Shown here: in pieces, positions 37,796-64,000 of the stretch | How positions within the stretch are numbered: position 1 is the stretch's first letter | How the letters are laid out: every line of letters begins with the position of its first letter | DNA from: Liolophura sinensis | Lineage: Eukaryota; Mollusca; Polyplacophora; Chitonida; Chitonidae | DNA: 64,000 nt | Direction: 5' to 3' | Assembly: GCF_032854445.1 (NCBI RefSeq) | Contig: NC_088303.1 | Span: 18,731,501 to 18,795,500, forward strand | Program-made: the position numbers and the translations under genes | The notes under the pieces: model-generated | Told to the model about the DNA's origin: nothing | The model's database searches: none | The model's input: the letters and a program-made list of their open reading frames with translations, nothing else

Positions 37796-38633
37796 CTATC
37801 TTGACTCCATCGACTTGATGTCAGCTACAGAAGAATGGGAAGTAACATAGGCTGTACATCGGTCATTATCGATTCCCTTGTCTCGGAAGGCCGCAACAGA
37901 ATGACAGTAACTAGAAGTTCTGGCCAACTCACTCGCAGGGGGAAATTGGAAAATTCCACTTAAACCAGGGCTGGACCCTGGTGAAAACATCGGCGAAAAG
38001 GGAACAGGTGGACATGCGAAATCAGACGGAGTTTCACCACTCAGGTCAAGCTGACATTTGCTCTGTACACTTTGTGCCAGTGAGGTGGGCATCATAAAAG
38101 AAGCAGGTCGTTTCTTGGTATATTCTCCGGTAGACTGGTGGTAAGAGCGTGTATTCTTTCTTCGAAATCGGGCTCTACGGTTCTGAAACCACACCTGAAA
38201 AAAATACAATACGAACGGTTGGAAAAGAGATAATCCAAAAAATGAAATTAATTCGACATTTTTAATGAATTAGAGATACCAGCCCCAATGTATAAAGTGT
38301 TCTTACCCGCACATTGGCCTCGGTAAGGCAGAGTTGTTGTGAGAGATACTCCCGGTCCATTCTGCCTGGGTAATGGTTCTCCTCGAACTTCTGTTCTAGA
38401 ATCTCCAACTGTTCGGCGGTGAATCGGATTCGTTTGTGGATTTTGGGTGTCAGCTCGGGTGCGGAGAAGGGAGCTACAGGGTAGGACACTGGGAAGAGAT
38501 ATCTAGCCCCGCTGTTGTAAGGATCAGACGGAGGTGTGAACCGTAATGGTAAAGGATGGACAACTGGAAAGTAATGTCTAGCCGAGATCTGGTTCTGATG
38601 ATAGAAGAGGCGAGAGGCCTGTAGCATATCCAT
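37796..38633 (-). CDS. Paired-like (PRD class) homeobox gene 1
   Basis: Exon 1 is 38633-38307 and exon 2 is 38194-37796 on the minus strand; 241 residues. The homeodomain spans about residues 65-124. F8, L16, W48, F49, Q50, N51 and R53 are present, so DNA binding is expected, with Q50 specificity. The single intron falls between homeodomain residues 46 and 47, the classic PRD-class position. No paired domain is seen. The tail is Pro/Ser-rich (PPVPFSPMFSPGSSPG) and ends KSMESR, a motif shared with the other two genes. Start chosen by alignment to gene 4 (MDM..). An AATAAA on the minus strand lies near 37645. The lineage assignment beyond 'paired-like' is uncertain. Confidence 0.93.
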
Positions 38634-38699: not shown

Positions 38700-38960
38700 T
38701 GAATTTAAATAGTTTGTCATCTGCAAAGTAGAATTCTGATTGGTGCTTTATATGAAATATCCCACTGATAGCTAAATAACAGAAACTCTGTGTTTTCTTC
38801 CTACGGATTATCGGATTAGTGTAATCCACCTCTGGAACCGCGTTTTTTTTCTGACATATGTGAAAGACACCATCAAAGATACGAGGGTCTTGGAAGACAC
38901 TCTCAATGATTTGGCTATGTAAAGAATTGCTCTCAAAGATATAAAAAAACATTGATGGGT
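38700..38960 (-). promoter_or_regulatory. Promoter of homeobox gene 1 with TAATCC cluster
   Basis: On the minus strand: a TATTTAAAT box at about 38703-38711, a CCAAT box at 38739-38743, and three K50-homeodomain sites. GGATTA lies at 38805-38810 and 38813-38818, TAATCC at 38822-38827. The order and spacing match the gene 4 promoter. The upstream ~130 bp, with 'GAGAGTGTCTTCCAAGAC', are also conserved. Confidence 0.75.
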
Positions 38961-41222
38961 GGAGTTACAGAAAGACAGAAATGGTGGACAATAGATAAAT
39001 GGTTTGTTTAAGTCTTACATACAGTATTGTTTTTCGTTGAAAATGTTTGTGGTATCATGCTTATGATTTACTGTTGCTCTCTCTTTGCTTTATCTGGATA
39101 CGTTAAACAACAGGAAACCTTTTGTACAGAAAACAAATTCTTAGAAAAACATTGTTCCGGTTTTTTAAAAAAGTTTTTACTTTTGGTGTAAATGCTAAAC
39201 CAAAAGCTGATGCATCCTTTAATCACAGTCAGATTTGGGGTTTTTAATATTACAAATATGAAGGGCGTTTGCTCTATATGTCGCAACTACCTTTGGCAAG
39301 AAGAGGAAATCAAATCACAGTAGCTGTTATTGTGTGGGAAGAATTTGTGCTTCAGTCTTCAGTTACAGTGAATCTATTTCTATCTATGCGTTTGTTTGGG
39401 ATTTGATTTAGTGGGGGATCAAGAACACAGAAAGCTAAGTATATTCGCTAGTACACGCAAGAAAATTTAAATTTGGACTCTTTGAGAAATATGGACCTTT
39501 TAACCTGAAGTAAAAATACTCAGTGTAATGGTTTTATACCTGCTCTAACTGAAGCCTTAATTTAAATATGCTATGTAACCCTTTAGGTCAATAACCGAGC
39601 AGATCCCTCGTGTGTCACCAAAGAGATTATTAATTTGTACATAATTTTATTTCATGAAGGCATTAGTTAAAGTCTTAACCGTCCATTTTATTCAAGGGGT
39701 GATGAAAATAATGACCGTGTGATTATCAGCTGATTTCATGTCTCCTGTATAACTTTGTTCTATACAAGTTCAAAGAAGACACTCTCAAAGACCAAGAATC
39801 TTTAGGGAGGTCACAGAAATGTTGAACAGCAGCCTTTTGATGAGAGATTAGCTGGTGTCGAGCGTATTTTGTGCCCAGGGATTATAGACAGCTATCTACT
39901 TGTGAATTTTTTTTTTAGAAATGTGAGAAAGACACCCTCAAACACACGAGGGTTTAAAAACAATATTCCAAAAATTGAAAATGCTGACGAACACTCTTGA
40001 AGACCTTACAGTCTTTGGCGGAATCACAGAAGATAAGATAAAAAATGGCTTTTTTAAGATTGGTACAGAACATTCTTTGTATGTGTGAGTGTTAGGTGCA
40101 GTAAATATGGCATGTTTAAGTGATGCCTTAGGTTTGTATAAGTAAATACAGTGTGTAAAAGGCAACAGTTTCAAAAATTTAAATCATTCATTATATTTAT
40201 CGGGACAAACTTTGATCTCAATGTCTGCCATTTCTTGTATAAGAAGACAAAACCAAAACCTAAGTGTGGCATAAAAAATTAAATACGATGATTATTCTTC
40301 CGTGTTAGATGAGATAGGTTCTACGTGAACACGATACAGATGCATCCATATTATACATTCGTGAAGATCTTTTCTCTGATACTACTTCAAGTGTTACGTT
40401 TTGGATTTGCCGGAACAAGTTATTCTTTTAAAGACTAGAAGACTCCTGTGCCTTTATTGAGTCCTATTCCAGACTGACAAGTTTCCATTCTCTCCTATCT
40501 TCTTTCATTGTCTTGCAAGATTTACTATAACTGGACACTCTGGATATTGTATGCAGGCTACTGACCATTATAAGATATATCTTTGAACGCTAATTGAAAT
40601 ATAGACGCTCAAGCCTTATCGAAGTTCAAGGAAAATGACGATTGCATTCTACTGTCATTGTATTTTAATATACAGCTTCAGATATTACATATGCATATAT
40701 CATTCTACGTGAGTTGTGTTTTATATTTTCAACACTAGAATGTTTCAGTGTAATGATACGCACATTTTCTAAGGAATAAGGGAATTATTGTATCTAAAAG
40801 ATATCTACAGTTCATTCGTTGTGCACATATTGTACCAGTGTGTATATACTGCACATACGTGTATTGGTTCATATTATTTGTAAAGGTTTCGTTTCAAATT
40901 TCACATGTGTTTAAACACAGAAAACCTCTGAAGCCGAAAATCTATAAATGTTAATGTAAAAGTATGTATGCTTGTTTTTTTTGGCTATAAATAGTTTAAT
41001 TGGGGTCAAAGTGAGTAATGATGTCGCAAATACCAGAACATCAAAGAAAATGGGAGCATCTCTTAAGTGCAAATCACTGCAGGTGGCGTTATTGCTGCAA
41101 CCAATCAAATGACAAGATGTCAAATCCAAATCGTACTTATAATGTAAGCAGCAAACATGTGAGACATACCAGACCTCAGATATTCTGCTAGCTGTCATCG
41201 AAAGCTCTAAACTGGAGAAATA
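38960..41222. promoter_or_regulatory. Divergent intergenic region between homeobox genes 1 and 2
   Basis: This region separates head-to-head genes. Degenerate copies of the gene 1 upstream module ('GAAAGACACCATCAAAGA', 'GAAGACACTCTCAA') recur at about 39775-39825 and 39920-40035. 38940-39250 matches 45420-45710. CCAATC at about 41100 may be part of the gene 2 promoter. Confidence 0.5.
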
Positions 41223-42072
41223 ATGGATATTGTGTCTGCAGCTCGCATCCTGTATTACCGGAATACTAACACACAGCAGCGATATGCAAACAGAAGGACA
41301 TCTCCAGAAACTCCAGCCGTGCCAAGGTTGTACACTCGAACACTTTTACGGCAACAGGAATTAGAGATCCTAAAACTTGTGTTTGCGGCATGTCATTACC
41401 CAGATAAGGTGGTTGTTGAGAGTCTTTCGCAACAACTGAATGTCCCTACGTCTCGTATACAGGTACTATTTATATTAATCTAGATATATTATGTTAATTA
41501 CCGACAAAATTATGGGGGTGAAAACAATTACCTTTGCAATTTTGTCTGCGAAAATACGATAGACGCCATTATATTAATCAAAGGTTCCTTCGCAATTTAT
41601 TTTGTAGTCAATTCCAGGGGACGGGGCGTACAAAATTATTTCACATTTGACTAAACTTGTATCTTGTTTGCTTTTGCAGGCATGGTTTATTAAACGGAGA
41701 GCAGCTCGTCGACGCAAGGAAATATCTTACATTGGAAGCAGAAACAACGTGGCCATAGAAAATTTGGAACGACCAGCCCCTGTTGTAGAGTCACACCAGA
41801 GACAAGCAAACACCGATACTAAGGGACAAGACATGATGATAATGGCCACTCAAGGAATACAAGACCCCGGTCAGCTTTCGGAGCCCTATTCCAGATTGCC
41901 AATGACTCCCTTCTATCCAATCTACTCCCGTGGTTTTCCCACTCCTCCGACAATGACTATGGCTGGACACTCTGTACACTGGCTCCCCATGCAATACCCA
42001 CACCAGCCCCAGTCAGGTTACAATGCCATTTCCTGCTCGACTCCAGACATATATTCTATGGAAAGACGTTAA
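41223..42072 (+). CDS. Divergent paired-like homeobox gene 2, Asn51 replaced
   Basis: Exon 1 is 41223-41462, exon 2 is 41680-42072; 210 residues. The intron sits at homeodomain 46/47, as in gene 1. The domain is recognisable (R5, L16, F20, Y25, SLSQQL, W48, F49, R53), but recognition-helix residues are I50 and K51 (WFIKRR), and position 8 is Leu instead of Phe. Asn51 is nearly invariant in homeodomains and contacts adenine, so DNA binding may be lost or changed. The frame is open and the splice sites are good, so the gene looks maintained. The tail has PMTPFYPIYSRG and ends SMERR, parallel to SMESR of gene 1. AATAAA lies at about 42163. Confidence 0.88.
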
Positions 42073-42629
42073 TCATTAGTGTTTTTGTGTGCAAAGAGTG
42101 TGCGAAGAAATGTAATGACAGGCCTGATAATAAGGCTACTCTTGTTCCTGTTGGAACCATAATAAATATCTTGGTGTATGGATTGAAGTTATTTATTTTT
42201 GTTATTCTTCATCCGCCGTGGTGACATTATAACAAACATTATGTCGCTACACGTATTTTCAGGATTACACAAGGATGACACAATTCGGGTTTTACGGTAA
42301 AAGCGATATCCGCCATGTAGTAGTGATTATTCAAGACGAGAGGCCGATATAATAAATACATTTTCCTAGTTTAAAAGTGTAATTTACCCCATAAAAGTTT
42401 TCTTTGAGCAATACTGTGAATTAGATACACTCATTTTATCACAAGCATAGTCTAGCGCTTATTGGGTGGTGCATGACAATTTTTGTCAATGTCAATGGTA
42501 CTAATAAACAAATAGGACAATAACACAAAAATCTGATCAATAAAGATGCAATATTTTGCAAAGTATAGACCTACAAATGAATCATTGGAAAGGATCCGTT
42601 GCGACTAGATAGGAAATCGTCCCACTAAA
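42073..42629. other. 3' flank of homeobox gene 2
   Basis: Holds the AATAAA at about 42163. I see no further exon. Confidence 0.5.
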
Positions 42630-43533
42630 CGTACTATAGGTATAAATATATGAATGAATGAATGATTATGGCTTTACGCCACATCGGCAATTTTTCAGCC
42701 ATATCGTGGCGAATAAATATATGACATTTGCATTATGCGATTGCTTAACTGGTAGAATGCATGTTTTGTCTGCTTATACGTGGTGCGTACATGATTTAGT
42801 TGTTCAAGTTTAGTTGTGTACATGATCTAGACATTTGTATAAATAAACTTTTTTGCCTGTAACACATTTGCATAGCATGTTTGATCATACGAAACATTGG
42901 TTTGGTACATATTCTGCTTCGTATGTTTGCTTATATTAATGTGTTCATAGGGTTGTCTACACGAGACATTTTCAAGCCTGGCATGTATATTTGAGCCACC
43001 TACTTGTTATGTATACTGATATGACGTGATTGGTTGGTTTGCATAATGAAACATCAACAGGTTTGTTGCATTTGTTTCCTTGGTTTCTTTATGAGACATT
43101 AGCATGGCGCGTTTGTCTATGAGAGACATTTGGGTAAATGTTGATAAACGATAAGACGTGTGTTTGGTTTGTTTGTCTAATTGAGCTTTTTACATGGTAG
43201 ATGTGTTTTATGGGGCATTTACATAATAGGTCTGTTTATGTGGGCAATTGTATAGTAGCTTTGTTTAATTCAAACATTTGAATTTTATGAGACACTTGTA
43301 TGTTAGGTTATGAGACGTTTCCGTACTATCTTTGTTTATATTTGTTATCTGAATAAAAGCTTGAAAATGTCAGACAAAAGTCACAAATGATGTTGACTAA
43401 GGCCGTCGGGATTTTTATATGGTAGCTGAATTTGGTAAATGTTGCATTGTAGATTTGGTTGTGTTAGACATTTGAATTCAAGAATTGTTTATGTGAGACA
43501 CTTACATGTTAGCTTATCGTCTTTGTTTATAAA
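42630..43533. repeat. Segmental duplication copy B, left part
   Basis: Matches 36450-37180. A ~55-bp second-family SINE fragment is inserted at about 42655-42714, between two copies of ATAAATATATGA. A partial internal duplication (about 43330-43430 against the sequence beside the Tc1 element) makes a third copy of the 3' flank. Confidence 0.75.
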
Positions 43534-45009
43534 CTGACGGCCAAAAGAAACTTTACAAAGAGTTCAAATCAATTTATTTTGCCAAAGCAAAAAACAGGGT
43601 GACTGGAGTTTAACATATTGAAAAGACCAATGACTTCAGATATTGAAAGTCTTGAGGAAGAACTGACAAAGCAGCCCTCAAATCATTCTACAAGTGAACA
43701 AACAGAGCAGGGGTAGAAAATAGCCATTACATCTTTGTTAACCATGGGCAGAGTAAAAAAAAGTTGATTATTTTTAAAATCAGATTATTTTCAAAACAAA
43801 TCAATATCGCGTGCAGCGACCCCTTGCTTCAATGCTTCCAAAAACTCTCTAACGCATAGAAAAAGTCAGTCGTCTGATGACGTGGGATTCAATAGACAGT
43901 TTTTGTTGGTTGGCCGCAAGGTGTGGCCGTTGTCTTACTCGACGACCCATGATATCCCAAAGGTGTTCTATGGGGGACATATCTGGGGAACGTGCTGGTC
44001 ACGGCAAGACGTTGACGTCGTTGGCTTCCAGGAAGTTCTGCACAACTCGAGCTGTATGGGGTCTGGCGTTGTCATACTGGTACAGGACACCACGCAAAAC
44101 AACAGGACGTAGGATTTCACCCAAATAACGTTGAGCTGTTAGGTTCCCGTAGATGATGACCAGTGGTGTCCGTTCCTCTCCACAAATCCCACCCCACACC
44201 ATCACGCTGCCGCCACCAAATGGTACCACCTCCTCGACGCATGATGCAGCCGTTCGTTCGCCTCTTCGACGGTAAACTCACTGTCCGCCATCGGCTCGAA
44301 AAAAGGCAGAAGCGGCTTTCATCCGTGAAAGCAACTCGTTGCTAATCACGTCGCTGCCAACGGCGTACCATTCGAGCCCATTGCAACCTCTGGTGACGAT
44401 GTCCGACAACTGACCTCTGAATGGTGGATAGGCCCTAATTCCGTGAGCCATAAGTCTCCTGGGCACGGTCTGCCGACTGACCCGGTGACCTAAGGCATTG
44501 ATTGACGATGACGTCACTGTCAGGACACGGTTCCTCAGGTGTAAGAAGCACAGGTATTCGTCTTCTCTGGGCGTATTTAGCCTAGGCCTGCCTGTTCTTG
44601 GCCTGTCCGATCACTGCCCTGTCTGTCTGTGACGTTGCATTAAGTTTGACATAGTTACACGAGAGCAGTGTAATGTGGGCATGGGTGGCTCCTATGGATA
44701 CCATACCCATGGCCCTCTCGCGTGGTTCTGGAGTCAATCCAGGCATTACTTTGGTCGCTATAAGTCAGTGTGCAAGTCCGGCACACTGTGTGTAACGTTT
44801 TTATACACTTATTACATGTGCAGTTGCGACCATTAATGGATCACGTGATTCTTCAACTTTTTTCGTTGTCTCCAAAAAAGTTCGTGTGGGTGTATATGAC
44901 GCTTGTCGCACATGGGAATATGCTTCAAACAATGTTTACCTACAATAATTTGCTGAAAAGGCTGGTTAAATTTAACTCACGCAGTCGTAAAGCTTCTTTT
45001 GGCCGTCAT
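43534..45009 (-). mobile_element. Tc1-like DNA transposon, inactive
   Basis: Terminal inverted repeats start CTGACGGCCAAAAGAAACTT (43534) and end AAGCTTCTTTTGGCCGTCAT (45009). The element splits sequence that is continuous at 37100-37115 in copy A, with a TA at the left junction. The minus strand holds a broken transposase. The length, about 1.48 kb, suits the family. Confidence 0.85.
43849..44735 (-). pseudogene. Tc1-like transposase remnant
   Basis: Minus-strand pieces include the HTH region (INALGHRVSRQTVPRRLMAH), the central GGGSVMVWGGI with YGNLTAQRYL, the second catalytic Asp in YDNARPHTARVVQNFL, and SPDMSPIEHLWD with the third acidic residue (DD34E type). The conserved Trp codon after NVLP is TGA, and further stops and frameshifts interrupt the N-terminal part, so no active enzyme is encoded. 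Confidence 0.88.
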
Positions 45010-45720
45010 TTTCTTTGGTATCTGCATAAAAGCTTGAAAATGTCAGACAAAATCATAAATGATGTTGACTAAGACTGTGGGAATTTTTATATGGTAGCTG
45101 ATAGTGTCCATCTAGACCTTGACCAGCTTTATTACAATGGTGACCTCCACGGGGTCGCGGAAGAGGCCGGAGGTGCTAAACGGTATTATCTGGGTATATC
45201 TAATATAATATAAAGACAAATATAATATCACAGCATACTCCCACTGATAACTAAATAACAGAAAATCTGGTGTCATGGGCAGCTGCCTACGGATTATCGG
45301 ATTACTGTAATCCACCTCTGGAACCGCGTTTTTTACTGACATGTGTGAAAGACACCATCAAAGATACGAAGGTCTTGGAAGACACTGTCAATGATTTGGC
45401 TATGTAAAGAATTGTTCTCAAAAATCTAAAAAAAAAAGCATTGATGGGTGGAGTTACAGAAAGATAAAAATGGTGGATAATAGATATATGGCTTGTTTAA
45501 GTATTACATAGAGTGTTCTATGTTTTTCATTGGAGCTTTTTGTAGTATCATGTTTATGATTTACTGTTGCTCTCTCTTTGCTTTATCTGGATTAGTTAAC
45601 ATGAAACATTTTTCTAAGAAAACAAATTCTAGAAAAACATTGCCTCGACCTAATTTTTTACATTTGGTGTAAATGCTAAACCAAAGAGCCATGCACCCTT
45701 TAATCACAGTCAAAATTTGT
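45010..45720 (-). pseudogene. Ghost homeobox locus: promoter kept, coding exons deleted
   Basis: 45015-45239 matches the 3' flank of gene 1 (37100-37320), and 45240-45710 matches its upstream region (38758-39250). The two are joined directly at about 45239/45240. The interval equivalent to 37321-38757 (both exons, TATA and CCAAT boxes) is missing. Three K50 sites remain: GGATTA at 45291-45296 and 45299-45304, TAATCC at 45308-45313. Confidence 0.82.
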
Positions 45721-45899: not shown

Positions 45900-46010
45900 C
45901 TCCTCTGTAGGTTACGACCTGAACCAGGAATACCCAGCCGTGCATCTGCAGCTAGGATACTGAAACAGGGTTACTGGAGTTCCTTGTAAATGATATAGCA
46001 GGCCTGCTAT
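45900..46010 (+). pseudogene. Possible relic of exon 1 of a gene 2 paralogue
   Basis: Short stretches (CCAGGAATACCCAGCCGTGC; TCTGCAGCTAGGATACTG) resemble parts of gene 2 exon 1 (CTCCAGCCGTGCC; TCTGCAGCTCGCATCCTG), but out of order and broken by stops. This is weak evidence. Confidence 0.25.
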
Positions 46011-46365
46011 ATCAACAGTTCAAACGGTGATTCTCTTTTACTATGTCCATTTTCCGAGAAAACTGAATTCATCACTTGGTACTTCATTGCGGAAGTGCAC
46101 AACTTTCATCTGCCTAGACTACTATGCGGAAAACACCTTCGACGTTAGAAAGCTAGAGTAAACGTGACGTCACCTTGCTCTCGAAATGGTGATGTGCTGA
46201 AGCTGTGTCAATGCGAAGCTTCACTAATCTTTTACTGGGTTGAAAAAAAATGCAAGTAATTATTTAATTCCGGTTTAAGGGACTTTCAATGGTAGTCTTT
46301 CAATGAACATAAACGTTAGTCATGTGCTGTGTTTCACTTTACCTTAAGTATTTTTATTTTTGCAG

Positions 46366-46626
46366 GCATGGTTATCAACAGAAGAACAGCTCATCTTCGA
46401 AAAGAAAAATCAACGCAGTCATGGGAAATTTAGCACAAACAACCCTTGTAATGCCACCCCTGAGACAAAGAAACACAGATGCGGAAGGACAAGATATGGT
46501 GCTAATGTCCACTCATATGGAATATGGGGATTTGGACATTCCCAATGTGTTGACGCAGTCCATGTTGATTTCCCTGTATGCTAATAAGAGAAACACCGTT
46601 ATATGTGTCATATGGCGAACTGGGTA
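46366..46626 (+). pseudogene. Exon 2 pseudogene of a gene 2 paralogue
   Basis: The acceptor TTTTTGCAG and GCATGG match gene 2 exon 2. One base is lost after TGG TT, which shifts the frame inside the recognition helix; a second change about 40 bp on restores the frame. From there the sequence parallels gene 2 (RQRNTDAEGQDMVLMSTH against RQANTDTKGQDMMIMATQ), but no SMERR end is found. In the unshifted frame the helix reads INRR, so the ancestor had Asn51. The matching exon 1 is absent or unrecognisable. Confidence 0.82.
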
Positions 46627-47769: not shown

Positions 47770-48103
47770 TAGATCTTTGAGAGCAGTTGTTTACGTCGCC
47801 AAGCCATCGAGAGTGTCTTCCAAGACTTTCCTGTCTTTGAGAGTGTCCTTTACACATACCACCAGAAAAAAACGCGGTTCCAGAGGCGGATTACAGTAAT
47901 CCGATAATCCGTAGGCAGAAAAAACACCGCCCACTACACCCGAGTCCTTGTTATTTAGCTATCAGCGGGAGACTCTGCACAAAGCACCAATAAGAAATCT
48001 GTTTGCTGACCGCATACTATTTAAATCTAACTCAAGCCGTAAATGACAGTATTACCATTTCCTTCCAGAAGACACACCTTGAAAACTCCAATTATTAAAC
48101 AAG
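47770..48103 (+). promoter_or_regulatory. Promoter and 5' leader of homeobox gene 4
   Basis: Contains GGATTA at 47888-47893 and TAATCC at 47897-47902 and 47905-47910, a CCAAT box at about 47985, and a TATTTAAAT box at about 48018. The order is the same as at gene 1. About 300 bp are alignable with the gene 1 upstream region in inverted orientation. Confidence 0.78.
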
Positions 48104-48936
48104 ATGGATATGCCACAGGCCGCTCCCCTCTCTTACTACCAGTGCGAGATCTCGGCCAGACATCGCCTTCCAGTTGTCCATCCTTTACCATTACGGTTCA
48201 TACCTCAGCCTAATCCTTACATAATTGGCGCAACACATTTCTTCCCATTCTCCTACCCATTACGAACTGTATCTGGACCTCATGTGGAACCTAAGTCCCA
48301 CACTCGAGTGCGATTCACCGCCGAACAGTTGGAGATTCTAGAACAGCAGTTCGAGGAGAACCATTACCCAGGTAGAGTGGACCGGGAGTATCTCTCACAA
48401 CAACTCTGCCTTACCGAGGCCAATGTCCGGGTAAGAACGCTTAATGCATTGGGGCTGGTGTCTGTTCTATTAAGAATGTCTCATTAAAGTTTATCAATCA
48501 TTTTATCTGTTTTCTCATCGTTCGTATTGTATTTTTCCAGGTGTGGTTTCAGAACCGGAGAGCCCGTCTTCGACGAAGTAATAAATGTTCTGACCTTCGG
48601 GTTACCGGACAAAACATCAAGAAACAATCTTCTCCTTTGGTGATGCCCACCCCACTGACACAAAGTCCTGAGCGCAAATGCCAGCTTGACCTGAATGTCG
48701 TAAGTCCATCTCATTTAGCACGTCCACCTGTTCCCTTTTCCCCGTTGTTTTCACCCGGATGCAGTCCTAGTTTTAGTCGAATGTTCAAATTCCCCCCGAC
48801 ATCTGATTTGGATAGAACTTCTGCTCACTGCTATTCTGCTGCGGCTTTCCCAGACAAAGGAATCGATGATGGCCGATGTACAACCTACGCCTCTTCCCAT
48901 TCTGTGTCTGACATGAAGACCATGGAGTCAAGATAG
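48104..48936 (+). CDS. Paired-like (PRD class) homeobox gene 4
   Basis: Exon 1 is 48104-48430, exon 2 is 48541-48936; 240 residues. Exon 1 is 327 nt, exactly as in gene 1, and the homeodomains differ at only a few positions. Q50, N51 and R53 are present (WFQNRRARLRR), and the intron lies at homeodomain 46/47. The N-terminal part shares SARH..PVVHPLPLRF and the tail shares PPVPFSPLFSPG, ending KTMESR. It is the close paralogue of gene 1 in opposite orientation. AATAAA lies at about 49074. The presumed role is a transcription factor in the nucleus; the target genes are unknown. Confidence 0.94.
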
Positions 48937-52142: not shown

Positions 52143-55100
52143 ATATAGATATAGATATAGATATAGATATATACATAGAAAATAACAGAAAAATGATATA
52201 GAACACAGTTATCACAGAAAAAGATGTAAAAAAATCTATAAAGTTTTGAAAGCCGAGAAGATGAAGTTCAGCATTGTGGATATGGCACTAACGGACAATT
52301 CACTCCGGGTAGCCATGTTGTAGAAGCCGTTATGGACTTGGCCAATCACTAGCGCTGAAAACGCCTTGTGATAATTGACCGTCACGTCAGACATATTAGC
52401 TCTCGATTGTCAGAGTGATTTCTTATAGTGGGTAGTGTTGCGACACAAACTGTATTATAAAGAGATGGCTTGTTCGAAATACACGACAGTTTAGCTGCAC
52501 AAAAAAGTAACCAAAACCAGCAGATTTTATTTTACAACAATTTATTAGGTTTAACAAAAACAGATAACACGACTTTACAAATACTAAAGTACTTAAGTTT
52601 AACAAGAAAGGATAGCAGTATCTATACAAATACTACTTACATGTACAACGGTGTCAAGTCCAAACGGACGCATATATTCCACAATGCTTAAAAATTGCAC
52701 AGAGGCAATATTCATAAGAGGGAAAATCTACAGTATAACTGAGTGTATGAAGAAATATACACAAAATTCCACAGACAGGGTCCATGCACTAATAAGCACT
52801 GTGTACACAAGAGCACAAATTAAATATACAAGTTCAGACTGAACAAGTGCTCGGTGGAGATATGATATAACAAAGCCAGAGGCTATAAAGACACCAAAAT
52901 TCAGCACAAAAGGCCTACTAAAGTAACACACATCGAAAGCATCCAAAACTCTCAATAATTCTCCTTTCTTTTCTTTTGACCTGCTTTCATAGGTCTAATA
53001 CAGACTGGTGGAATTTTCAAGAATAAGAAAATTCTTGAACACTTATTGTTAACAAACAGGCCCCAAACTGAGCGTATTCTGGAACATTCTAAGGCAGAGG
53101 CAGACAGCAGGCCCTGAACTCAGCATATGTAAACAGTGGCAAGCTAAATTTAGAGGCTAACGGCAGTCGTTCACATAACAATAGACAGACATCAATGCAA
53201 TAAATTGGATTCTGCGGTTAGTTTAAGTGTTAAACTGATGCATTTTGAATTACACATGTATGAACAGAGAACTGAGAAATGCTGCCCGTGTCACAATGCG
53301 TAGGTGTTGCCTGAATTTTTGTCCTTGCCCAACCGTACTTTTTCTAAAATGACTCTACTTCTTGTTGTCCCTTCGTTATGGGAGTAGGTACAAGTCTGGT
53401 GGTGCAGCTTCTTTATCCCGCACAATACAGATTAACACGGATTAACGCGAATGCAAATTTTTTCTCTCGATTGAGGAGATTATCTCTTTTAATTTATGGT
53501 TGCGAATTTATGTATATAATCTGTCCATAACATTGTCTTCAGCAAACAACGAAAACAACAGGTAAACACTTTCACTACAAGTGTACGGCTAATGCACGAT
53601 ACTGATCAGTACCATTCTGTACTACACGGCAGCCGTATCGTGTAGTAGCTGTGCGGAGGCTGCCTACCGAAAGGTTATTGGCTACACTGTGTCGTATATA
53701 TCCACTGGCATGGAACAGTAGCGACCCTAACGGTAAGTCATCATATGCATCAGGGAAGCTAAAGTACAGCATGCTTTGTTGAGTACTTTATGTTTACCCT
53801 CATTTTTATACAGGCACCAAGTATGGCGATTAACTCCGAAATCTCTGACACAACTTGAATATCTGGACAATCTTAGACAAAAATCGCACACTAAAGAGGT
53901 ATGTGAAATTCTACACATAGTGTCTATTATTTATTTATTTATTTATTTAATGATTTTGGTCCGAGTGTTTAGCGCTCTAGAACAGCACAATGACCCAAAA
54001 ACATCTCACCAATGCCATCACTGTTAATTTAAGTGCAACTTATGCTGGCTTCCTCTTCGATTGTACATGGGAAGGTTTGTCAGAAGCAGCCTGCGGATGG
54101 TCGTGGGTTTCCCCCAATCTCCTCTCACCATGTTTCTTGGTGTTCAAGTTGGGTTCAAGGAAACCTAACGTTGAAGTCAATCGTTAGGTTTTTGGTCATC
54201 GGAATATCTTCTTCCCAAGCTTACGTTATCATTGTGCACCTGTACTTACATGTAACTTTTTGAGCAATGGAGTTCATTTATATCAGACGACGCAACTTGT
54301 TTCGTGGTGTCACTATATTACTATTGGTTTGATATGAAGTTACAATTTAAATATGCACCCATAATCAGGGCTGCAGTTCACTTAAATGATCCCTTACCAT
54401 TTTTTTTCACTTAGGTCAAAATGGGATTAAATATGACTGCCACAAGAAAATCTGCATGCTTACCTTCTGATCACAATTAGGTAGACTTCTGGAAGGACCC
54501 GTCGTCAGTTGGAAGACCTGTTGTACTGAGAGTTCCATCTAAAAGACGGAATGAGATTTACATCGAACTCGGACTTCAAGGATTTGTTCCCGAAGTTACC
54601 ATCAAGGACCTGCAACAAAACATCGACGAAGAAGAGTCCCTGTATACACAAAATTCCTTTGCTGATTTAAAGGACTTTGACTACAGCAAATATCACCCAC
54701 TATCTGAGGTAAGTCACTACATGTATGTGGTAAATTATCTTGTTTGTATAATTTATGCATCATTCTTTGTGCCTTTGCGACAATAAGATGTCCCTATCAC
54801 CTCTATGATAACTATTAGCAAAATTGCATACTTTAACCGAAAAGAACAAGTTATCACATTACCAAATATGACTAAAAAACTAGTTATTTCGATAGGTTTT
54901 TTAAAATCCTTAAAAGAAAAACTTAAAAGATTAAAAAGTACAGACCAGAGTCTGCCTAAATTCCAGGCGTAACTACTGCAGACAGTGCCATACCATTTAG
55001 AATATACTAAGGCAATATTCGGCTGCGGCTTAAATAAAAAAACTACAAAATGGAAAGTAAAAACTAGAGCAGCGACGACGGTACATTTATGACGGTTGGT

Positions 55101-58100
55101 TGATGACCATAATTAACAAGCCTCTTGTTAAATTACCTGTTAAGGTTTTAGTCATGTAAATGTATAGATAGCAGCAACAAATACTACCCCTGACACCACG
55201 ACTGACGCAGAATTAGGTAAATAATTATGCAGTTTATGTCAATAGGAACTTGGATAATAACTTGAATAGGATAATGTAGATGTCACTGGTTTAGAATTAC
55301 TCATGTGCTGCGAAGTTTTCACTTTTACTAAACAATGACATCTTATTGATTTAACAAAGCTTACTCTATTTCAGGTGAACGCGTGGATGGAACAGATCGC
55401 TGCAAAATACCCAGAACGTGTAACACTGTTTAACATCTCCAGCTCTTACGAAGGCAGGACCATTAGAGCTATGAAGGTGAGTTCTTCTACTGCAGTGGCC
55501 GATTTGTTGCAGCGTCCTCCTCGCTTGCGGGTTACCGGGAAAGTGTAAAGAACAAGAAAAAAAAAACACACATTACACGCATTATTAGAGAGTGTAATCT
55601 CCTGCGCGCACCTACCCATGTTACCATTTGTCTACATATACTGGCAAGATTGTGAGCTGCTTACCGAAGACAAAAAATAGCATGTGTTAGCAAGGCAGCG
55701 GTTTGCTGCGTGGCACAGAATGACTGCATGGGTTTGCTTCACCACAGATTGCTAATGGAGATCTCGTCCATTCAGCGGAGAGAACTTTCCCTTTGTTTTC
55801 ACTATTGATTCGAAATCAGACTCATACTTGTATGTGGATGTATCTGTGGTGAACGTATGTTCACGAGACACAAATGTTAACGAGTTTGTTTGGTGGTCAG
55901 ATTGTAGGCAAAGCCACTGGTTCTAAAAAACCTGGTTTCTTTTTTGACGGAGGAATCCACGCACGGGAATGGATATCGCCAGCCACGGTTATCTACATGG
56001 CAGCCCAGGTAAGATCACACTCGCCTGGTACAACTGGCCTTAATACTGAACAAGTGTTTAACCCTCTTTTCAGACATGTTCCCCAGCATAAATAAGTATG
56101 TACAATGTGAAGCTTCGGTTTCGCATTTTATGACGCATGCTGCCTGTAACAGTTAGACAGGTTTGTCATTTTTGTGTACTGCTACGTCATCACTTTGTGA
56201 GATTTCTGTGACGTATTCGCAACGGACATCAGCCACCATACACGTCAGTACAGATACGAAAATATATGAGGTAGTTTTACATTATATTCTGCTATGAATA
56301 GTGAGGAAACTATTCTTTTACCTCTGTTTCCATGAATACATTTGAGCCAGTTTGTTAATAAAAATGAATAATAAAACATAAATTCTGAAAATCAAAACAG
56401 GCACCCGGAGCCTATTAGGACGGAAACAAGTCCAACGGTAACAGTTATCGTACCTCACTTCGCATCTATATCCGTGTAAGAAGACCTGCAAAACTATTCT
56501 GTTTTCTTTTGTTCTTTGTTTGTTTGTTTTTTTTTTGTCAAGCATACGGTTTGATTTTTGATGAGGTATAGATTTATCACCTTCTGCGCACATTCGTTGA
56601 GAAATATGATCGACACTGTGATGGGTAACGGGGAAAATAAACTAAAAGAGCCTTCATCTTTCTCGACCTCTAAGTAGAAAATGTCGAACAGAGAGGGGAT
56701 TAACCTTAAGAATTTCTTAAAACTGTAGTGTTGCATTTTTGACCCACATTTTCAGCTGATTGAGCAGTATGGGAAGAATCGCAGCATAACAGAAGTCGTC
56801 GACGCACTGGACTGGTTCATACTTCCGGTCTTCAACGTGGACGGTTATAACTACACGTGGACAACGGTAGGTCGTTTTGCTATCCTTTCAGTTGTGACGC
56901 GTATTAAACAGTTTAGCTCGATATGTGCACAAATGATTGACGAAGCGTTTAATAAAATTACTTTTGTAAGGTGTGATATTGCTCATTTGTTTAAATTTTG
57001 TGTTCATTCCAAAACTGTCGTAAACATTTAGAATCTAAACTAATACAAAATATTAAAGACTATATCATAGAAATTGAACCCAGAGCATAGTGTGGCATCG
57101 TTAGTTGACAAATGGTCAATTGTGTTACCGACGAAATGCGGCCTCTTGTCAATTTATTCAACCTATTTACGTATATGCCTAAAAGGTAGACGCCCCTTAG
57201 CATCATGGTTTAAGCAGAATTAGGTAAAAAATGTAATGATGTTGACTGCGTTTATTAGACCTCACTGGTCTAAAATTACCTGAACTAGCCTCACAGTCAA
57301 AGTGACTTTCAAGTATATATGTAGTATTGGTTTGTACTGGCCGCTCCATTCCTAAGAATGAAGTGCTTCACTACAAGGCAAACATGATTTGTTCTATTCA
57401 TTAAAAGTGATTTTTGCTGGCATTCATTTTATGTTGCAGAACAGAATGTGGCGGAAAACTCGGTCAAAACATTTCAATTGTTATGGAGTTGATCCGAACA
57501 GGAACTGGGACTGGGAATGGTGCAGTAAGTAACCTTGTAATTTACCATAAATAATGAGCATTATTTCGCTTTGTCATTATTTCAAATGTACAAAAACTTG
57601 AAAGAAGAATAACAGAAATGCTAACAAAAACAGCACAAGACAAATTTGGTATACCTCCATTTGTCACCGGACTCGGATTATTAGTTAAGCAAAATCGTCT
57701 CAGAATCTCAGAGCTGTCCCACAAGCATGGATCTACTGGGAGTTCCATTACATCGATTCCGCTCATTAGTAGAACAGGAAATGGTACGAATCCTTACACT
57801 AGTTCTACGATAAGAACATAATCTTACGAAACTCTAAAATCGTCACAAGCATTGTTTGGCACCTCAAATTGGTACACCTGTCCTTAAAGGCTGGTTGGAT
57901 ACAGTCATCTATTTTATTTTAGAAAACTCAAAATTGAAATTATATCCTAACAGATTCCAAAGTATGAATTAAAAAACAATGCATCATTTCACTTACAGAG
58001 CAAGGTGCTAGTAAAGACCCTTGTTCCGACTCCTACTGTGGTCCCAGTCCATTCTCCGAATCCGAAGTGAAGGGCGTGGCTGATTTCTTGAACGCCGTAC

Positions 58101-62683: not shown

Positions 62684-64000
62684 ATGAGGGGTCTGTTGAC
62701 GATATTGGCGTACGTCCTGGCGTTCGTGACGTTAACGCTAGGTGAACGTATTAGATATGACGGGTAAGTGTTTAGGCATAGAGCACTTGCCAAAGAATCG
62801 ACTTAGAATTAAAATCGTGTCAGTTTATATTAAAATAGAAAAACATGAGAAAAAAATGAACTGTTTGGACATATGTGTTTGAAATAAAATAAATAGCTTC
62901 ACTTGATTGCAGCTCGGAACGGCAAACTGCAAAACAGTTGCAAGTGAATATGTCTTGATATTTAAATTATCTTTCTCCAAAGCCACCAAATATGGCGAGT
63001 GATTCCTACTTCTCGAATCCAGCTGGATTTTCTGGGCATTCTGAAGGAAGAGTCACAAAAGTTTCAGGTAATAAGAAGACGACTTTCTACAAGGGCCTTA
63101 AAAAGATATATAACAAATGCATTGTTTGCAAAAACCCCTGTGTTGGCGGTTAATTTGAGCAAAGTGTTAAGAAAATAAATAGCGGAGTGGAGCTTAAAGG
63201 CATAACCCCATTGGAAAAGATACTGGTCAAATGTTAAGCATCTCATAAATACAGCATATTCGGATGTAACATAGTACACATTGTTGTTCCTTCGCATCCA
63301 CACGATCAGTGTCCAAACACTGTACAATGTTGATTGTTCATTTCGTAAAATGTTCAGAGACTTACACGTATTCTGATTTGACATCTAATAGTGTCTTCTA
63401 TATTCTACAACAGAGATCATGTATTTTTTGTTACGAATCCTGGCATCGAGGCGTTGATGAAGCTGGCTAGGTGGGTGCGAAGCAGGAACGACAATCTTGG
63501 AAAAGAATAACTCTACGTGTAACATTTCAGTTGGACTTCTGGAAAGAACCATCGGCTCTTCACAGACCAGTGGTGTTCAAAATACCTCCAAGCAAGCGTA
63601 ATGAGATTTACATCCGACTCGGACTCCAGGGTCTGGTTCCAGAAGTTACGTTAAAAGACCTGCAGAAGAACATTGAAAAGGAAGACGCTCTCTATACTCA
63701 GAAGTCCTTTAATGGGTTGGAGAATTTCGACTACAGCAAGTACCATCCTTTGTCTGATGTAAGAAACTTTTTAGAATAGGTTTGATTTTTGATGTTATCC
63801 TTGTCCGATGGTAGGTCTGTAACTTTATGTGTGCAATGGACCATTCATCTCAGACACAGTCGTGTGCACACACTTGTAAAATTTCCCATATATTTAGAGT
63901 TTTAAATCTTCAGAAAAGACAATATACACAGGTACCGGAAATAGAATTACGAAAAAGTCTCACGCCACTTGACTACCGTTCCTTGAGATTATTGACCAGG
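62684..64000 (+). CDS. Second M14A carboxypeptidase, 5' part (runs off window)
   Basis: Exons 62684-62763 (signal peptide MRGLLTILAYVLAFVTLTLG), 63414-63474 and 63531-63758. Intron phases (2, 0, 0) match the first gene, and exon 3 is 228 nt in both. The exon 3 proteins are about two thirds identical (LDFWKEPS.. against VDFWKDPS..). Only the activation segment is inside the window; the catalytic exons must lie beyond position 64000. The second intron is only 56 nt if the donor GTGCGA at 63475 is used, and exon 2 is 8 codons shorter than in gene 1. It is a tandem duplicate in the same orientation. Confidence 0.85.

Follow-up and report, generated by a model that had tools for sequence, protein, structure and literature searches.

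The gene analysed here is a two-exon paired-class homeobox gene, hereafter called the K51 gene, which lies at 41223-42072 (+) and encodes a product of 210 amino acids. Positions refer to the window, by which we mean the whole stretch of 64,000 nucleotides that was analysed (C9:18731501-18795500) from a chiton (Mollusca, Polyplacophora). Exon 1 (41223-41462, +) carries the N-terminus and homeodomain positions 1-46 and is supported by its frame and the Pfam homeodomain. Exon 2 (41680-42072, +) carries homeodomain positions 47-60, the tail and a TAA stop, and the two are separated by a GT-AG intron (41463-41679, +) in phase 0, at the 46/47 position of PRD-class introns. The first-pass annotation had described a frame open over both exons, intact splice sites and a PRD-class intron, and all of this is borne out: the spliced frame has no stop over 210 amino acids. 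It had also likened the end of the tail to that of the relatives, and here the SMERR end is present, but the relatives end in SMESR and TMESR. Candidate TATA boxes are found at 40986-40992 (TATAAAT) and 40943, and candidate polyadenylation signals (AATAAA) at 42161-42166 and 42351, all on the plus strand and all by consensus match only. The homeodomain is not a chance resemblance, because the Pfam Homeodomain model matches with 45.5 bits (E 6.5e-12, cut-off 22.9). A whole-genome protein search found a single copy of the gene in the assembly.

Asn51 of homeodomains makes the key adenine contact, and few transcription-factor residues are as highly conserved. This near-invariant residue of the PRD class is absent from the K51 gene, where codon 51 (41692-41694, +) is AAA and encodes lysine. 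The WFIKRR recognition helix reported at first is thus confirmed, and helix 3 reads A47 W48 F49 I50 K51 R52 R53 A54 A55. The numbering is safe, as the homeodomain aligns without any indel to PRRX2 and PAX6, which together with CRX are its best matches in a PDB sequence search. R44, Q46, P26 and D27, which we take to be paired-type residues for the class assignment, are all present. We file the gene as a divergent PRD-class member by its intron, sequence and neighbours. Asn51 does not strictly define this class, because human SEBOX, which is filed there, is also without it.

The rarity of Lys51 was investigated with sequence patterns run on 609,464,459 bases in 632 contigs. These exon-2 patterns require an exact AG acceptor, V/A47 and W48-F49, and the counts apply to that kind of exon. 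The unbiased count of residue 51 comes from the PRD-type pattern which accepts any residue there and demands Ala54, and this gave 53 matches in the genome and none in the reversed control. Asn is found in 46 matches (11 of them belonging to one tandem array) and Lys in one, the K51 gene. The remaining six do not look like homeobox sequence: one has a stop codon, one has Thr51 together with Ser53, and four are identical and lie within 0.9 kb (C9:764408-765303). The exact Lys51 pattern, without the Ala54 demand, has 2 genome matches and also 2 in the reversed control; the genome matches are the K51 gene and a second one whose reading frame is flanked by stops. For the Asn51 pattern there are 59 genome matches against 0 in the control, of which 42 were translated, including 2 chance matches. 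In total 53 homeodomain exons were read and 39 paired with an exon 2 (40 including the K51 gene). For 10 of the 14 unpaired exons an exon 2 lies in the fetched stretch, always with Asn51, and the other 4 stretches showed none. Dropping five genes judged non-PRD and one exon that starts inside the homeodomain left a reference set of 33 rows, in which Asn51 is found in 33/33, partly by construction, with 30 of the 33 exon 2s coming from the pattern that demands Asn51 and 3 not.

Lys51 is not the only unusual residue of the gene, which also departs at positions 17, 31, 42, 47, 50 and 55. Among the 33 paired-type homeodomains of the genome, position 31 is R in 31 (I in the other two) and V in the K51 gene, position 42 is E in 32 and here T, and position 17 is E in 30 and here K. 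Position 55 is K or R in all 33 and here A, and position 47 is V in all 33 and here A, the Val count being shaped by the search, which demanded Val or Ala there. The residues R5, T6, L16, F20, Y25, P26, L34, R44, W48, F49, R52, R53, A54 and R57 are kept. With a profile score of 15.2, compared with 59.1 for the lowest reference, the homeodomain has diverged further than any other in the set. Its hydrophobic core is largely intact: at 11 of 12 positions which we take to be core, its residue occurs in at least one of the 33 references. We also considered whether DNA contacts were lost selectively over core residues, which the counts do not support, as conserved sites are retained at similar rates in both (6/8 core, 7/10 DNA-contact). 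The homeodomain pairs 31-42 and 17-52 form salt bridges. Both pairs are lost in the K51 gene, raising the possibility of a less stable domain.

The K51 gene is flanked by two intact homeobox genes, one on each side. The left neighbour (37796-38633, -; exon 1 38307-38633, exon 2 37796-38194) encodes 241 amino acids and ends in SMESR, and the right neighbour (48104-48936, +; exon 1 48104-48430, exon 2 48541-48936) encodes 240 and ends in TMESR. Both have the WFQNRR helix with AAC at codon 51. The right neighbour, queried with one wrong residue, scores 77.6 bits against the Pfam homeodomain compared with the 45.5 of the K51 gene. In both neighbours exon 1 ends with Arg46 (CGG; 38307 and 48430), a position which is Gln in 25 of the 33 paired-type homeodomains. 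A block of 52-56 bases sits upstream of both (38797-38848, -, and 47863-47918, +) and once without a gene (45283-45338, -), the gene-less copy being 96% like each of the others. In both neighbour promoters it holds three GGATTA/TAATCC sites with identical spacing, which we take to be K50-type homeodomain sites, and none of these sites is found in the 400 bases upstream of the K51 gene. Remains of a third neighbour-type copy are found at 45009-45219 and 45283-45717, and also at 43324-43429; they represent the promoter side and 3' flank, are 78-96% like those of the left gene, and enclose no coding part.

Two decayed relatives of the K51 gene lie close by. The first, which we call the sister, consists of an intron end and exon 2 sequence (46332-46524, +; exon 2 from 46366) and is 75.8% identical to exon 2 of the K51 gene over 157 aligned bases. 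It has a 1-base deletion in codon 49 and further gaps, and in the register of the K51 gene it reads A47 W48 (base missing) I50 N51 R52 R53 T54. No significant exon 1 was found for it; a candidate at 45945-45975 with an apparent SAARIL was dropped, as its score was matched in 57 of 500 shuffles. The second is a fragment of an exon-2 tail (40430-40549, +) which matches 41852-41981 with 70.8% identity over 120 aligned bases. Codon 51 of the sister is AAC, as in both intact neighbours, and it shares Ala47 and Ile50 with the K51 gene. Therefore, K51 is derived and arose after a local duplication, and Ala47 and Ile50 had changed before it. The replacement of Asn51 by Lys, as first annotated, is in this way polarised, with Asn ancestral, and on this sequence comparison it is a one-base change (AAC to AAA) on an already altered recognition helix.

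Sequence comparison thus shows the K51 gene to be related to the decayed copies, and less firmly, by end motifs and position, it points to kinship with the intact neighbours. All three intact genes share a start of the form MD(M/I)..A....Y and an end of the form (S/T)ME(S/R)R. When parts of the proteins were compared with 5000 shuffles, as good a score was reached by 1 shuffle for the N-terminus against the left neighbour, 1 for the tail against the right, and 6 for the last 20 residues against the left. The weaker parts are the last 20 residues and the N-terminus against the right neighbour (47 and 59) and the tail against the left (87). In a genome protein search with the K51 gene, the right neighbour appears at no better than E 0.33, and there is no match to the left one up to E 1. 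The best other genome protein matches are unrelated PRD genes elsewhere, at E 3.8e-5. No promoter homology was seen between the K51 gene and the neighbours (scores of 10 and 8, compared with 393 between left and right). In a homeodomain tree of 39 rows, from which only the exon starting inside the homeodomain was dropped, the K51 gene sits on a branch 2.74 changes per site long and groups, with 88/75 support, with another two diverged genes, those at C3:22.05 Mb and C9:8.21 Mb. Long-branch pull is likely, and the tree does not fix the position of the gene, since a clade with its neighbours is not rejected (p-AU 0.317). We discarded kinship with those two genes, as K51-type ends are missing in the stretches read.

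Tandem arrays of homeobox genes occur elsewhere in this genome. Twelve near-identical PRD-type exon 2 matches are found every 2.5-2.8 kb at C9:8214551-8245440, where a diverged homeobox gene of the paired class forms a large tandem array. At C5:1098451-1163070 there is a tandem homeodomain gene array with many copies 2,276 bases apart, in which one copy read has a TALE-like WFANKR, and at C11:25840556-25863390 several similarly scoring homeodomain exons form a local array 4-8 kb apart. The window itself also contains metallocarboxypeptidase M14 exons at 54481-54786, 56729-57031 and 63471-63779 (+), two for the activation peptide and one catalytic, suggesting tandem genes, and a tandem repeat at 322-891 with a 48-base unit in 11.9 copies, open on both strands.

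The signs of selection on the K51 gene are mixed. Compared with the sister, dN/dS is 0.50 for the 48 codons aligned, 0.10 for the 13 codons of helix 3, where there are few sites, and 0.90 in the tail; between the left and right neighbours it is 0.64 overall and 0.37 in the homeodomain. In helix 3, 6 of the differences are synonymous (9.3 sites) and 4 are nonsynonymous (29.7 sites), which gives a Fisher p of 0.004 on rounded counts, and the codon-position test of helix 3 alone gives p 0.085. Over exon 2 there is no third-position excess against either the sister (12, 12 and 14 differences by codon position) or the 40430-40549 fragment (17, 9 and 9), so residue-level constraint appears to be weak, or masked by the pseudogenes' own drift. 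Half of the distance between the K51 gene and the sister is about 0.15 changes per site. In a neutral simulation at 0.15 per site, which assumed 0.1 indels per substitution, three quarters of them frameshifting, 3.1% of frames stayed free of stops and 0 of 4000 were free of both stops and frameshifts. Because simulated neutral drift rarely leaves the frame intact, it was probably maintained during a large part of the separate history of the gene, with amino acids changing fast. A later relaxation is possible, which would need to be recent, below roughly 0.05 changes per site.

Several known systems bear on what a Lys51 homeodomain could do. The N188K variant of NKX2-5 is, by a position equivalence which we take to hold, a change of homeodomain Asn51 to Lys. 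It is the same change as in the K51 gene, but there it is a mutation found in patients, in a protein of the NK class, and not a fixed gene. In a preprint (PMC12191230), N188K is among the variants most damaging to DNA binding and has lost affinity for canonical and related sites. Its protein contacts largely survive, with TBX5 partly lower and a strong HAND1 contact gained, and its target peak number in cells is similar to wild type (PMC12191230). The N51A mutant of Ubx no longer binds DNA but still interacts with Tin, and the functional cooperation of Ubx and Tin in vivo needed DNA binding (PMC7069958). HOPX has a homeodomain fold without key DNA-contact residues and acts through proteins; one extra residue is inserted between its helices I and II (PMC9179269), and Hopx has been reported in molluscs (PMC5322547). 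Membership of the K51 gene in this family was rejected, since the gapless alignment to PRRX2 and PAX6 leaves no such insertion; in contrast to HOPX, it encodes a two-exon protein of 210 amino acids.

Within the paired class, human SEBOX has Lys51 where the mouse orthologue has Asn, and also has W53. The possibility of a non-functional pseudogene was raised for it, and the authors retained it as a divergent, functional gene (PMC2211742). Lys51 is thus shared, whereas the K51 gene keeps Arg53 and has changes at 17, 31, 42, 47, 50 and 55. LEUTX and other eutherian ETCHbox genes are also fast-evolving tandem paired-class duplicates (PMC8208926, PMC10246821), but in primates LEUTX keeps N51 under purifying selection, except for one divergent duplicate (PMC10246821). 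By their description, the oyster lophotrochozoan PRD genes (PRD1, 2, 4-8) resemble the K51 gene in being unassignable to ancient families, and neither text mentions asparagine or position 51 (PMC5322547, PMC6118893).

The reading we favour, and to which we give about an even chance, is that the K51 gene is a fast-evolving protein-coding paired-class gene whose product folds, has lost the TAAT readout and acts via protein contacts. The setting would be a small birth-and-death cluster of paired-class homeobox genes in the chiton Liolophura japonica. In a first step the base-reading positions 47 and 50 would have changed to Ala and Ile, and in a second, after local duplication, Asn51 to Lys by one substitution. 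The homeodomain most likely still folds and most likely no longer reads TAAT-type sites. If active, the protein would work through contacts with the homeoproteins of the neighbours or their cofactors, and may loosely contact the DNA backbone through R5, Y25, R53, R57, R58 and perhaps K51. We infer such a DNA-blind or loosely binding, partner-acting protein because of NKX2-5 N188K, Ubx N51A and HOPX. The first-pass annotation had offered a non-DNA-binding partner, an RNA- or protein-binding homeodomain or a new DNA specificity, and each of these functions is at this point a hypothesis. We count in favour of a kept gene the intact frame of 210 amino acids, the Pfam homeodomain, the core residues, the drift simulation and the synonymous excess in helix 3. 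Counted against are the tail dN/dS and the missing third-position excess over exon 2, the similar retention of core and DNA-contact sites, the lost 31-42 and 17-52 pairs, the wild-type-like peak number of N188K, the dependence of the Ubx-Tin cooperation on DNA binding, and the weak matches to the neighbours. A more specific version, in which the homeodomain was dismantled stepwise in one lineage (47, 50, then 51) and kept as a DNA-blind partner or antagonist of the adjoining WFQNRR proteins, we put forward tentatively and consider somewhat unlikely.

The strongest competing explanation, less probable than a kept gene but a serious one, is that the gene is dying: selection was recently relaxed, K51 was an early damaging change, and the frame is unbroken by chance. 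Two decayed relatives within 5 kb, the extreme divergence of the homeodomain, the tail dN/dS and the lack of third-position excess over exon 2 would all fit, and SEBOX offers a parallel, a human gene with K51 and W53 for which pseudogene status was raised (PMC2211742). Against this, the gene retains its splice sites and end motifs, the intron at 46/47 and most of the core, and drift of at least 0.05 changes per site leaves the frame intact in fewer than 3% of simulations, so that the relaxation would have to be recent. A new DNA specificity, with Ala47, Ile50 and Lys51 reading other bases aided by R5, R53, R57 and R58, seems improbable to us. Positions 47 and 50 changed before 51, as in a stepwise shift, and R5, Y25, R44, R53 and R57, presumably backbone or minor-groove residues, are retained. 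However, the sole tested Lys51 domain that we found, NKX2-5 N188K, lost affinity for canonical and related sites (PMC12191230). Moreover, R31, E42 and K/R55 are gone along with N51. Substitution errors in HiFi data are unlikely. It is very improbable that the species has Asn51 and that AAA is an assembly error or rare allele, for although AAC to AAA needs one base and the Liolophura japonica assembly has 14x HiFi coverage and 1.24% heterozygosity (PMC11068029), there is a single copy in the assembly and the other odd residues would stay, with A47 and I50 common to the sister.

Lys51 in a paired-class gene is already known from the precedent of human SEBOX (PMC2211742). The open-access literature searched yielded no earlier description of the K51 gene, and neither did the genome paper, whose author list credits homeobox gene annotation (PMC11068029). 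Natural genes without Asn51 reveal what homeodomains can do beyond reading TAAT. Here, a stretch of 12 kb contains the Lys51 gene, a decayed sister with Asn51 and two intact neighbours with Asn51, which makes the order of the steps readable. We regard the K51 gene as of moderate interest: it may simply be decaying, but the evolutionary steps are legible in one locus.
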